Positions 50,173 through 55,393 of a stretch of 64,000 nt of DNA are shown here, piece after piece. Made by a program: the position numbers and the translations under genes. Numbering within the stretch: position 1 is the first letter of the stretch; every line of letters starts with the position of its first letter. Where the stretch lies: positions 124,001 to 188,000 of the forward strand of contig CACZJZ010000001.1 in assembly GCA_902781655.1 (NCBI GenBank), given 5' to 3'. The stretch comes from an uncultured Lachnospiraceae bacterium. GTDB lineage: Bacteria; Bacillota; Clostridia; Lachnospirales; Lachnospiraceae. The notes below the pieces were generated by a model. That model did no database searches. It was given only the letters and a program-made list of their open reading frames with translations, and was not told the origin of the DNA.

Positions 50173-50619
50173 ATGAAGGAAACAGAAACAATCCGAATCA
50201 AGTACTTCTGCAAGGATATTCCGCCGCTTCAGGCAATCGGCGGCAGGAAATCAGACTGGATCGATCTGCGCAGCGCAGAAAATGTCTCCCTGAAGCAGGG
50301 AGAATACCGGTTGATCCGGCTTGGCGTCGGCATGATTCTGCCTGACGGCTACGAGGCCCATGTTGTGCCAAGAAGCAGCACTTTTCAAAAATTCGGGATT
50401 CTTCAGACAAACAGCATGGGGGTTATCGATCAGTCCTACTGTGGAGACGGGGATGAATGGAAATTTCCCGCACTTGCCATGCGGGATACCGTCATTCATG
50501 TCGGAGACCGCATTTGTCAGTTCCGTATTTGTGCGCATCAGCCTGCCATTTCCTTTGAAGAGGTGGACCATCTCGGCAGCACCGACCGGGGCGGATTTGG
50601 CAGTACCGGTACAGTCTGA
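50173..50619 (+). CDS. dut: dUTP diphosphatase
   Basis: A 148-residue trimeric-type dUTPase that removes dUTP and supplies dUMP. The five motifs are readable: [10 protein letters not shown] (motif 1, where AG-YDL is usual), [11 protein letters not shown] (2), [16 protein letters not shown] (3), [10 protein letters not shown] (4) and [11 protein letters not shown] (5, the C-terminal lid). The changed motif 1 and the DEWKF insertion make it a divergent member. The ATG follows GAGGTGA. Its stop TGA overlaps the proposed CTG start of the next gene (CTGA). Confidence 0.9.
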
Positions 50620-52523
50620 CGCCGCAGGAGCACGGTCAGATATATTCTCCGGAGCGGCCCGCCCGGGGAAACGCCGCACAGGAATCTGCCATACAGCACG
50701 GTACGGGCCCGTGCCTGGTACTGGCAGGACCTGGCAGCGGTAAGACTTTTGTTCTGGTACAGCATATCTCGCATCTCATCCTGAACCTCCGGTTCACACC
50801 TTCTTCCATCCTTGTCCTGACATTTTCCCGGGCGGCAGCCGCAGAAATGCGCGGGCGTTTTCTCAAATCTACCGGCGGACGTTTTTCACTCGTCACATTC
50901 GGCACTTTCCACGCAGTCTTTTATTCCTTCGTTCGTTCCGCCTCCCCGAAAGACAGCAGACTGATCACTCCTGAACAGCGCCGTGCACTGCTGACACACC
51001 TTCTCTCGGAAGTAAAAATAGACAGCCGGTGCGGAGATCTGACCAGTCTGATCGATGCAGCTGCTCTTGCCATCTCTCTGCTTCGGATCAGGGGAAGTGA
51101 CAGTGCCATGGAGAACTCCTCGTATCGTCTCGCTGCATCCCATTTCCCGGATCCTGATATTCCGGATAAAATCCGAAAGGGGTACGAGGCCTGGATGGCA
51201 GATCACGGATACATTGATTTTGACGATATCGCTCTGCGCTGTGAATCTCTTTGCCGCACGCGCGTCGGATTTCTTGAGAGCCTGCGGAGTCAATACCGGT
51301 ATATCCTGGTGGATGAATTTCAGGATATCAGCCCAACACAATATCGTATTCTGCGTATGATGGCGGAAACAGGTGAGCGGAACTTCTTTGTCGTCGGAGA
51401 TGACGATCAGGCAATTTATAGTTTCCGCGGTGCTTCGCCGGAGAGCTGCAGACAGTTTCTAACAGATTTTCCAGATGCAAAGCGCATTCTTCTCCATGTC
51501 AATTACCGGTGCAGCCAGCCCATTCTGGAAGCTGCCGACCTTGTGATCCGGGAGAACCGGAACCGTTTTGAGAAGAAAACTGCTGCACACCGTCTCGGCG
51601 GGAACAAACCATCCATTCTTTCCTGCTCTTCCGAGGCGGAGGAAGTCCGGCTCATCGCCGGAATACTGCGTTGCCGTCCCCTGGAAGCGCTGAAAAACTC
51701 CGCCGTGATTCTAAGAAACCGCATTCTCGTCAACCGATTCGGGGAGGCCTTGTCCGCAGCCGGGATTCCAGTCCGGCAGGATACGCACGCTCCGGATCGG
51801 GACAGGATGGAAGTGCTTCAGCTTGTCGATTCGTATTTCACATGCGCACTTCTCATGAAAGAAAGCAGTCCACGTCTGCCCAGGTCGCATTTCTATCGTA
51901 TGATGAACATGCCGGAACGATACCTGACAAGAGCTGGCATCCCGGCGGAGGGCGTTTCCTTTCCGCTCCTTGAAGACATTTACCGCGACCGGCCTGCCAT
52001 GGTTCATACCATTCACATACTGCAGCAGGATCTGATCACGCTCTCCAGACTGAAGCCGCTGTTAGCGATCCGCTACCTTCGTCTGAGCATAGGTATTGAA
52101 CCTTCCCTGTGCGATGGAAAAGACGAGCGCCGGAAGGCAAAGATCCTCGCAGCACTGGATGAAATGGAGTCCCTGGGAGCGAAGGCTGGTTCTCTGCGGG
52201 AATTTTTGCGTGTCGCAGCACAAAATTTCACGCAGTATTCCTCCGGGTCCGAACAGTCAGACGGCGTTCGCCTCTGCACTATGCATGCCGCGAAAGGATT
52301 GGAGTTTTCGACCGTCATACTGCCGGATCTCGGCGAAGGAGTTATTCCATGCAGGCAGGCCTCCTCTCAGGAAGACATAGAGGAAGAGCGGCGCCTCCTC
52401 TATGTTGCAATGACAAGAGCGCGGGAAGAATTGTTTCTTCTGTATGTCCGCGGAGGAAGAAACAATCCGCAGAGGCCGTCCCGTTTTTTAAGGCCGCTCG
52501 GCGTGGATGCCGAGTATCTATGA
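50616..52523 (+). CDS. UvrD/PcrA-type superfamily 1 DNA helicase, probable CTG start
   Basis: A 635-residue 3'-5' SF1A helicase. The Q motif NAAQESAIQ is followed by Walker A AGPGSGKT (Gly38-Thr44) and [15 protein letters not shown] (motif Ia). Walker [13 protein letters not shown] (Asp233), [15 protein letters not shown] (III), VNYRCSQPI (IV), [10 protein letters not shown] (V) and [15 protein letters not shown] (VI) are all present. The in-frame ATG at 50847 would delete Walker A, and between the in-frame stop at 50556 and 50847 there is no ATG, GTG or TTG. The best start is CTG 50616, overlapping the dut stop like an ATGA coupling. It is shorter than PcrA because domain 2B is reduced. Confidence 0.85.
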
Positions 52524-52581: not shown

Positions 52582-52610
52582 TTGAGCCGGACCGTCTTCT
52601 GTGGTAGAAT
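52582..52610 (+). promoter_or_regulatory. Promoter of the GlgX-like gene
   Basis: TTGAGC at 52582-52587 and TAGAAT at 52605-52610 with an exact 17-base spacer, 40 bases before the start codon. The weak -35 end fits a promoter helped by an activator on the upstream repeats. Confidence 0.65.
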
Positions 52611-52649: not shown

Positions 52650-54740
52650 ATGAGAATAGTCGCAAACAGCTATCATGTTGTCCCATCATCCAGTGTTGTT
52701 CCCGGGGCAGTCCGGGAAACGGACGGGATACGATTCACTGTTGTTATCCGCCGCGGAGCACGGATGACGGAGAAAGAAGCACCTCGTCTTGTTCTGTTCC
52801 GGACTGATCTGCAGACAGCTGTCACGATTACTCTGACCGAACAATACCGAATCGGAGATCTTTATTCCTGCAAGGTGCTTGGGCTTTCCGCAGAGCATCT
52901 TGCCTACTGTTATGAAATCGGCGGATGCTTTTTCAACGACCCGTGCGCATCCAGCCTCGGAGTTGTGGAAAACAGTTTCTTCAACGAGAGCCGCCTTGGT
53001 ACAATCTCCGAGGCGCTGTCCGGAACAGGCGTATCTCCGCTGCGCGGAAAATATCAGAATGCAGATCGATTTGTATATCTCCTGCATGTGCGCGGTTTTA
53101 CCATGTCTCACAACAGCGGCGTCCCAAAATCCCATCGCGGTACGTTTGCAGGTGTGACAGACAAAATTCCTTATCTCAGGGAGCTTGGCGTCACCACCGT
53201 AGAACTGATGCCGGTATGCGAATTGACCGCAGGAAAGAGCGGGGCAGGGCGCGGCTATCAGTCTCCGTTTTTTCTTCCAGCGAAGCGGGGCAAGACGCCA
53301 GGCAAAAGCAATCAGGATAGCCCTCAGAATTCCTCCGGGCCGGAACCTCCGATTTCGGAATTTCCAGTCAGGAAAAATTACTGGGGGTTCGGCAGTGCCT
53401 ATTATTATGCACCGGCTTCCAGACTGACAACGCCAGACAATTGCCCTTCCCGGGAATATCTGGAGATGATCCAGGCTCTGCATCATGCGGGAATCGAGGT
53501 CGTGCAGCAGTTCTGGTTTCCTCATGGCATTTCAGCTACTGCCGTGACAGAGGTCAGCCGATACTATGTTTGCCATTTTGGAATAGACGGAATTCATTAT
53601 ATCGGTGCGGACATCCCACTGACGCAGCTCACAAAGGATGCCATTCTGGCAGACACGCAGATCTATTCCGATCATGCAGCCGAAGTCCTGAACCAGGAAT
53701 CGTCTGCGGAGGATTATTCTCTGTCCACGCAGCTGCCTCCTGGCTGCCGCGGCAGTGCCGCTGCCTGGGCGGGAAATCTGATGCAGACAGGGGAGGACTA
53801 CCTCTATCTTGTCCGTCGTTTTGTCAAAGCAGACGATCTGGTACTGTCAGATTTTATTGCGCGATTTCTGCATGTGCCGGAACGCGTGGGAGAGCTGCGC
53901 TTTGCTGCGAATTATTGGGGATTCACGCTTGCTGATACGGTGACATACAGCAGAAAACACAACGAGGACAACGGCGAAGACAACCGGGACGGAACCGACA
54001 ACAATGCCAGCTGGAACTGCGGTGTGGAAGGGCCGAGCCGGAAGAAGGATATACAGCAGCTGCGAAAGCGCCTTATCCGCAATATGCTGACGCTTGTTCT
54101 GCTCTCCCAGGGAACACCCATGCTGACAGCTGGGGATGAACGCGGAAATACGCAGAAGGGCAACAACAACCCCTACTGTCAGGACAATGAAATCGGCTGG
54201 ACAGATTGGAAGAACACGGGTGAGAGTCAGCATCTTCTGACCTTTACAAGGCAGCTCTCAGCATTCCGGCGGGCGCATCCGGTATTTCGCAAAACAGAGC
54301 CGTTCCGGTTCACGGATTATCGCGCACTGGGATATCCAGATCTGTCGTATCATGGCAGGGATGCATGGAAGGCCGACTTCTCCGGGTACAGTCACAGTAT
54401 CGGCCTGTTATTCTGCGAGGATTATGAGGAAGCGCAGACGGAGCTGTCACTTCGGACAGGACACAGGCATCTGCTTTATCTGGCACTCAATATGTACTGG
54501 CAGGAGATGACCTTTGGTCTGCCGAACCTTCCTGCCGGAGAGTGCTGGTGCCGCATCATGGATACCAGCAGGGAAGATCCTTTTCTGCCTGTCGCAGAAA
54601 AAGAACCGAATCTGCACCAGTGCACTGCGCCCGCCAGAACCATCGTTATTCTGACAAACAGACCAGCGGAGGAGGTGCCCCACACTGCAACCCGTGTGAA
54701 AACAGGGCAGAAGAGTTCGCCGCCGGTGAAGACCGAATAG
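52650..54740 (+). CDS. GlgX/isoamylase-like GH13 protein lacking catalytic residues (probable pseudoenzyme)
   Basis: A 696-residue homologue of glycogen debranching enzyme. Conserved GlgX text is NYWGFGSAYYYAPASR, IQALHHAGIEVV, KHNEDNGEDNRDGTDNN, LVLLSQGTPMLTAGDE and QKGNNNPYCQDNEIGW. The active-site motifs are eroded. DIVLNH is QFWFPH, VDGFRFDLA is IDGIHYIGA (nucleophile Asp to Ile318, Arg to His316), AEPWD is ADTQI (acid Glu to Asp335), and AHDGFTL is NYWGFTL (His-Asp to Tyr422-Trp423). The frame is intact, so it is not a decayed gene. A glucan-binding or regulatory partner, like plant ISA2, is a fair inference. It has its own promoter with upstream repeats. Confidence 0.85.
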   Translation: MRIVANSYHVVPSSSVVPGAVRETDGIRFTVVIRRGARMTEKEAPRLVLFRTDLQTAVTITLTEQYRIGDLYSCKVLGLSAEHLAYCYEIGGCFFNDPCASSLGVVENSFFNESRLGTISEALSGTGVSPLRGKYQNADRFVYLLHVRGFTMSHNSGVPKSHRGTFAGVTDKIPYLRELGVTTVELMPVCELTAGKSGAGRGYQSPFFLPAKRGKTPGKSNQDSPQNSSGPEPPISEFPVRKNYWGFGSAYYYAPASRLTTPDNCPSREYLEMIQALHHAGIEVVQQFWFPHGISATAVTEVSRYYVCHFGIDGIHYIGADIPLTQLTKDAILADTQIYSDHAAEVLNQESSAEDYSLSTQLPPGCRGSAAAWAGNLMQTGEDYLYLVRRFVKADDLVLSDFIARFLHVPERVGELRFAANYWGFTLADTVTYSRKHNEDNGEDNRDGTDNNASWNCGVEGPSRKKDIQQLRKRLIRNMLTLVLLSQGTPMLTAGDERGNTQKGNNNPYCQDNEIGWTDWKNTGESQHLLTFTRQLSAFRRAHPVFRKTEPFRFTDYRALGYPDLSYHGRDAWKADFSGYSHSIGLLFCEDYEEAQTELSLRTGHRHLLYLALNMYWQEMTFGLPNLPAGECWCRIMDTSREDPFLPVAEKEPNLHQCTAPARTIVILTNRPAEEVPHTATRVKTGQKSSPPVKTE

Positions 54741-54787: not shown

Positions 54788-55393
54788 ATGAAACAGCCGC
54801 CAATCACGTTTACAAAAGCAAAAGGTCATTTTCTCACCGTTACGCAGCACCGTCTGGAAGTCTGCAGGAACTGTTTCCGGGTCGGTCTTTACCGGCAGGG
54901 CCTGGTACACGACCTCTCTAAATACAGCCCTGCTGAATTTCTGGTGGGGGCAAGATATTATACCGGGTCAGAAAGTCCGAACAATGGCGAGCGTCGCGTC
55001 CTCGGATATTCCAGCGCATGGCTTCATCATAAGGGAAGGAACCGGCACCATTACGAGTATTGGCTCGATTATCCCGCAGTGCGGGGAAAGAGTCCCTGTT
55101 ACGTGCCGGTAAAAATGCCCGGGCGGTACGTCGTCGAGATGTTCTGCGACCGCGTCGCCGCATCAAAAACATATCACGGCAGCGCGTACCGGGATAGCGA
55201 TCCTATCTCGTATTATCGAAAAGGCCAGACCGCTGCCTTCCTTCATCCGGATACCGCAGCTCTTCTTGAGAAGCTTCTCATTATGCTGGAGGAGAAGGGA
55301 GAAGATCGGACATTCCGATATATCCGCAGGCATCTTCATAAGAAACCGATCCTTGGAGGGATGCGTCCTCATGGCAGACATCAGACGCTTTGA
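54788..55393 (+). CDS. DUF5662 family protein, HD-like
   Basis: A 201-residue protein I recall as DUF5662. The N-terminal part has HRLEVCRNCFRVGLYRQGLVHDLSKYSPAEF, with His21 and the His41-Asp42 pair. SSAWLHHKGRNRHHYEYW adds more histidines, the pattern of a metal-binding HD-type phosphohydrolase. A later conserved stretch is VEMFCDRVAASKTYHGSAY. No substrate is known. The ATG follows GGGAGAA. Its 3' end overlaps the next start by 23 bases, so the pair is probably co-translated. Confidence 0.8.
   Translation: MKQPPITFTKAKGHFLTVTQHRLEVCRNCFRVGLYRQGLVHDLSKYSPAEFLVGARYYTGSESPNNGERRVLGYSSAWLHHKGRNRHHYEYWLDYPAVRGKSPCYVPVKMPGRYVVEMFCDRVAASKTYHGSAYRDSDPISYYRKGQTAAFLHPDTAALLEKLLIMLEEKGEDRTFRYIRRHLHKKPILGGMRPHGRHQTL

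Follow-up and report, generated by a model that had tools for sequence, protein, structure and literature searches.

The gene described here lies on the plus strand of a 64,000-nucleotide stretch of DNA (the window) from an uncultured Lachnospiraceae bacterium (contig CACZJZ010000001.1, positions 124,001–188,000). It codes for a 696-amino-acid, full-length homolog of GlgX and isoamylase from which the GH13 catalytic center is absent, and we refer to it as pseudo-GlgX (Table 1). Its N-terminal domain, barrel, and C-terminal sandwich follow the homologous order found in GlgX, and residue 8 of the modeled protein pairs with residue 1 of Streptomyces GlgX; full-length homology and a GlgX-like fold are both apparent from computation.

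Catalytic positions were assigned with hhalign against 14 active GlgX sequences of the same group. Where GlgX has its Asp nucleophile, Glu acid/base, and Asp stabilizer, the window protein has I318, D341, and W423, and Gln287 sits at the region I Asp position. The initial annotation, made from the sequence alone, had described a full-length GlgX/isoamylase homolog without catalytic motifs, and as a conserved and notable case this description stands. Its placements of Ile318 and Tyr422-Trp423 are reproduced as well, whereas the residue replacing the acid Glu is Asp341 rather than Asp335, six residues away in the hhalign alignment. Loss of a single residue was rejected as an account, as stretches around the pocket are also deleted (by hhalign, ~44 GlgX residues following region I and another ~14 following region II). 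Judged from these residues, GH13 catalysis has almost certainly been lost in the window protein.

Table 1 Features of the pseudo-GlgX gene and its surroundings in the window.
Feature	Position	Strand	Remarks
UvrD-like helicase, upstream neighbor	50847..52523	+	
Promoter-like site	52582..52610	+	consensus match only; within the 126-bp gap 5′ of pseudo-GlgX
Pseudo-GlgX gene, 696 amino acids	52650..54740	+	stop included
N-terminal CBM48-like domain, ~residues 8–118	52671..53003	+	hhalign to GlgX N-terminus; model strands
(beta/alpha)8 barrel, ~residues 137–545	53058..54284	+	hhalign and model
Region I, residues 287–292	53508..53525	+	QFWFPH for DIVLNH
Region II, residues 312–318	53583..53603	+	IDGIHYI for VDGFRFD; nucleophile Asp replaced by Ile318
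Region III, residues 336–344	53655..53681	+	TQIYSDHAA for TKLIAEPWD; acid Glu replaced by Asp341
Retained half, residues 416–525	53895..54224	+	motifs KHNEDNGEDNRDG, SWNCGVEG, SQGTPML, GNNNPYCQDNEIGW
Region IV, residues 421–427	53910..53930	+	NYWGFTL for AHDGFTL; His-Asp replaced by Tyr422-Trp423
C-terminal beta-sandwich domain, ~residues 565–672	54342..54665	+	model; hhalign; Isoamylase_C / ISOA1-3_C matches under their cut-offs
DUF5662 protein, downstream neighbor	54788..55393	+	

A contig search returned at least 589 related stretches, 80 of which were kept as wider loci; the nearest relative among the matches listed was the uncultured Lachnospiraceae bacterium RUG554. All 61 genomes of the genus carry a GlgX-like match, although at least four (G011, G033, G047, and G057) have as their top match one that scores as weakly as active GlgX typically does. 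From 168 distinct aligned sequences, 129 scored better with a pseudo-GlgX profile and 39 with an active-GlgX profile. The nucleophile Asp is missing in 128 of the 129 pseudo relatives and the full triad in every one; the sole Asp, at locus L156, comes without acid and stabilizer, and the acid and stabilizer letters remain in 15 and 28 sequences, respectively. Active sequences covering the catalytic sites were intact throughout (38/38). The same division held in further copies, with the nucleophile in none and the triad in 0 of 106 pseudo-GlgX, and 11 of 11 active copies intact. A shorter subclass (L146–L159, L162, and L163; mostly ~570–630 amino acids) is likewise triad-less, with region II motifs like IDGF.(L/V)N and region IV motifs like (S/A/G)HTGFTL.

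With catalytic residues mapped onto a phylogeny—a check proposed by the initial annotation—the triad-less sequences form one clade (58/58 in FastTree, local support 0.65; 21/21 in an IQ-TREE subsample, ultrafast bootstrap 96). This clade adjoins the active GlgX of Lachnospiraceae together with two sister-family sequences (support 100, IQ-TREE), and the 14 GlgX sequences fetched from other families of the order (out of 21 matches) are all intact. Close relatives with intact motifs, which would have spoken for an artifact, did not turn up among the 129. The missing catalytic center is a trait of one old family and not the erosion of a single genome; this family probably branched off from normal GlgX at the base of Lachnospiraceae or close to it.

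The source genome (2.76 Mb, 99.5% complete) holds GlgA, GlgB, and several other GH13 proteins. Pseudo-GlgX itself is all that the active-GlgX profile matched there at E ≤ 1e-40; type I pullulanase (E ≤ 1e-60) and GDE_C gave no match, and among these profiles no debranching enzyme was recognized; a neopullulanase-like GH13 protein at L005 is only a guess as a debranching candidate. The nearest relative of the source genome, G006, whose pseudo-GlgX is identical to that of RUG554, has one GlgX-like match. Active GlgX is likely, but not certainly, absent from G006, since this assembly is 93% complete and split into ~260 contigs. Between the two, pseudo-GlgX has diverged with 0.086 nonsynonymous (dN) and 0.66 synonymous (dS) changes per site, giving a dN/dS of 0.13. 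The gene is under purifying selection between two genomes in which no active GlgX was detected.

This constraint bears on the explanation that the gene is decaying, or that its motifs reflect mistakes in assembly or reading. Motifs so unlike those of E. coli GlgX might suggest as much, yet dN/dS is 0.13, the trait is common to 129 distinct relatives, and each of 117 loci holds one single GlgX-like open frame, none fragmented. Decay and error were both rejected on these grounds, and we give them practically no credence. The initial annotation was right that the catalytic motifs are gone, but "eroded" is the wrong word for a remodeling shared by a whole family.

To gauge the spread of the gene, we surveyed 150 Lachnospiraceae genomes, one per genus and at least 90% complete, calling presence by profile score (for active GlgX, at least 570 bits with the active profile; two of the 43 calls came as pieces). 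Pseudo-GlgX occurs in 124 of the 150 genera and active GlgX in 43, with both genes in 40, pseudo-GlgX only in 84, active GlgX only in 3, and neither in 23. Sequences were read for all 124 pseudo copies and for 25 of the 43 active-GlgX genomes; three copies were cut by contig ends. The triad was found in none of the pseudo copies and the nucleophile letter in one (G064, locus L156); in the fragment L161, region IV is not covered. An order-level survey of 196 genomes recovered the full-length pseudo class in 26 of 28 Lachnospiraceae and in 0 of 168 others, 21 of which gave weaker GlgX-like matches and 129 of which, having no match, were placed in other families by inference from table order. A phylum-level survey (398 genomes) found the class in three of five Lachnospiraceae, and the one match outside the family at E ≤ 1e-60 was an intact GlgX.

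Plants employ a non-catalytic isoamylase, ISA2, as a partner of the active ISA1, and the initial annotation had drawn this analogy. A corresponding bacterial subunit would form a hetero-oligomer with active GlgX and tune its specificity. The two genes do co-occur slightly above expectation (odds 3.65, p 0.034, in a test over 150 genera that takes no account of kinship among them), and they lie close together in two loci: on the same strand, separated by a single ABC-type ATPase gene (L167:4310–10280), or ~1.6 kb apart on opposite strands (L166:4328–10025). However, the predicted co-occurrence extends to only 40 of the 124 carrier genera; the other 84, the source genome included, lack active GlgX. 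Obligate pairing was therefore rejected as the general mechanism, given purifying selection on the gene where active GlgX was not detected; nothing else speaks as strongly against the ISA2 model as this constraint. The analogy is further weakened in that the family profile scores plant ISA2 below both ISA1 and GlgX, making it not the best-scoring plant relative, and in that no ISA2-type N-terminal domain is present. Pairing with active GlgX is possible in the 40 genera with both genes; as an account of the family, an ISA2-like subunit is improbable.

What the family has kept lies mainly in one part of the barrel. Among columns whose invariance in active GlgX reaches 95% or more, counted as kept when present in at least 80% of the pseudo family, 27 of 33 are kept over residues 416–525, as against 6 of 48 over residues 241–415. 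This retained half includes SQGTPML and GNNNPYCQDNEIGW, bearing out the observation in the initial annotation that such motifs are nearly unchanged. It also carries N438, W455, and N505, which pair with N561, W578, and N628 of maize ISA1. According to a 2025 Plant Cell paper (PMC12510319), the maize ISA1 changes R504C, N561S, W578R, and N628K leave no detectable activity, the four residues belong to a border lobe over 12 Å from the catalytic site, and W578 contacts glucan at a second binding site. Their equivalents in the window protein are R389, N438, W455, and N505, with two spacings identical to maize (17 and 50) and one of 66 instead of 74; this match rests on residue number and type. In rice ISA1, the maize spacings counted from the Trp of SWNCG land on N, N, and R. 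Within the pseudo family, and where covered, R389 is conserved in 129/129, N438 in 128/128, W455 in 119/128, and N505 in 127/127 sequences. Active GlgX keeps these residues too (W in 37/38; E. coli GlgX has Asn), and their pattern points to retention, not gain.

The old catalytic half, for its part, shows recurrent new residues (VDGFH, QFYFP), as might be expected if the old barrel had acquired a new active site and become a different enzyme. The segment between regions II and III is poorly conserved, however, and only seven positions combine a family conservation of 75% or more with a different residue in active GlgX, one of them acidic (E443). We consider a new enzyme very unlikely.

The surroundings of the gene offer another way to read it. 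A UvrD-like helicase gene lies near pseudo-GlgX in 24 of 29 loci of the genus and 36 of the 80 wider loci, and a DUF5662 gene directly follows it in 27 of 29 and 41 of 80, respectively; the DUF5662 protein is a possible functional neighbor. In the window, the UvrD-like frame is open 5′ of its first ATG (50601–50847) and contains a Walker A motif (GPGSGKT) there, so that the gene must start further upstream, use another start codon, or be preceded by a frameshift. Downstream of DUF5662 follow genes that we take to be PepT, MiaB, MutS, and MutL. Promoter-like sites number four in the region on both strands, against 1.5 expected, and an Rfam scan of the window returned tRNA only. With no glycogen gene recognized adjoining the window copy, the GlgX fold could have been reused for a non-glucan job, for instance with UvrD or DUF5662. 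Against this, neighbors vary by lineage as inherited gene order does: elsewhere ABC-type ATPases, TraX, DUF5721, or LuxS stand beside the gene, as do genes that are presumably GltX and TrpS, and in one genome malQ and glgB. The residues of the glucan face are also kept, and GlgB is present in all carriers. Reuse outside glucan metabolism is thus unlikely, though less so than the preceding alternatives.

We slightly favor the reading that pseudo-GlgX serves glycogen metabolism by binding branched glucan without catalysis, as a stand-alone holder or organizer. With the cutting site lost and often no working copy alongside, its job is probably one that involves no cutting, for example to hold or organize glycogen. 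Type I pullulanase above cut-off was found in 37 of 150 genera, and 61 of the 124 carriers have neither this enzyme nor active GlgX. Glucan binding is probable, and so is a role in glycogen metabolism, because of the retained residues, the co-occurrence with GlgB, and one gene cluster. GlgB is present in 146 of 150 genera; every carrier has it, and the four genomes without it also lack pseudo-GlgX. (With GlgA in 149 of 150 genera, the corresponding test for GlgA is uninformative.) Among 72 of the 124 carriers compared, GlgB was on the same contig in 23, always on the same strand and in 15 within 41 kb. The cluster, in genome G160 (L203:3315–9926), is a tight same-strand run of malQ, an exonuclease III-like gene, pseudo-GlgX, and glgB.

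On this reading the protein, with its GlgX-like fold but without the requirements of the GH13 mechanism, would bind branched alpha-glucan (glycogen) through its retained half, corresponding to the ISA1 border-lobe face with its second glucan site. Bound glycogen might then be held or organized for branching, phosphorylase, and transferase enzymes; that it scaffolds GlgB, GlgP, and MalQ is a more doubtful proposal. Several findings weigh against the glycogen reading. Neighbors in the window and most relatives are housekeeping genes; GlgB lies within ~6 kb in only 3 of the 80 wider loci; a MalQ query found no match in 109 loci other than G160; and Pfam CBM_48 gave no match in pseudo-GlgX. Since 22 of 146 GlgB-bearing genomes are without the gene, branched glycogen does not need it, and conservation of the border-lobe residues in active GlgX means that their keeping could be structural. 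Tentatively, Lachnospiraceae may have evolved from GlgX a stand-alone, non-enzymatic glycogen-shaping protein in cells without isoamylase activity, and such a protein might separate out the non-catalytic function proposed for plant ISA1/ISA2 complexes.

Why a non-catalytic isoamylase stays under selection is not understood, according to the 2025 study (PMC12510319). Pseudo-GlgX is a second case of such retention, bacterial and mostly partnerless, which makes the question testable beyond plants. It may also mislead genome surveys that score it among the debranching enzymes. One survey of glycogen genes in the gut took BLASTP matches of 20% identity across half the length as homologs (PMC10395257). 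The window protein passes this rule (29% identity to E. coli GlgX over 466 columns), so that, by the present counts, a dead copy alone could earn as many as 84 of the 150 Lachnospiraceae genera a GlgX call.

Set against GlgX and TreX (GH13_11; TIGR02100), pseudo-GlgX lacks the set of nucleophile, acid, and stabilizer as well as ~44 and ~14 pocket-side residues, and its score with the GlgX equivalog TIGR02100 is 281.3 bits, under the curated cut-off of 640.9. A literature search, with few subscription papers within reach, recognized no described non-catalytic bacterial GlgX. For Butyrivibrio hungatei MB2003, glgX1 (726 amino acids, CBM48) and glgX2 (648 amino acids, no CBM48) are listed, both termed debranching enzymes (PMC5716241), and glgX2 is among the genes upregulated in monoculture on pectin (log2 3.27; PMC6344614, Table 3); judged by size, glgX2 probably belongs to the pseudo-GlgX family. 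The plant proteins BAM9 and BAM4, inactive beta-amylases described as regulating starch breakdown, similarly keep a hydrolase fold as a non-enzymatic regulator (PMC8774843). They are plastidial and not homologous to pseudo-GlgX. Plant beta-amylases belong to GH14. Of the solved relatives, plant ISA1 scores highest with the family profile (421 bits, followed by bacterial GlgX at 395, 382, and 310, and plant ISA2 at 223); it is matched at R504, N561, W578, and N628 but, unlike pseudo-GlgX, is an active enzyme. Like ISA2 (PMC12510319), pseudo-GlgX is a GH13_11 protein that has lost its catalytic residues and is held across a lineage; unlike ISA2, it has no extra N-terminal beta-sandwich before CBM48 and mostly no active isoamylase in the same genome. 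Trees built without ISA2, in which the family groups with GlgX of Lachnospiraceae and kin, gave no sign of a common origin. According to the same paper, ISA2 retains a first glucan-binding site (SBS1) without the sequence of the second (SBS2), whereas pseudo-GlgX keeps the border-lobe/SBS2 residues; the bacterial family thus looks like the mirror case of ISA2.
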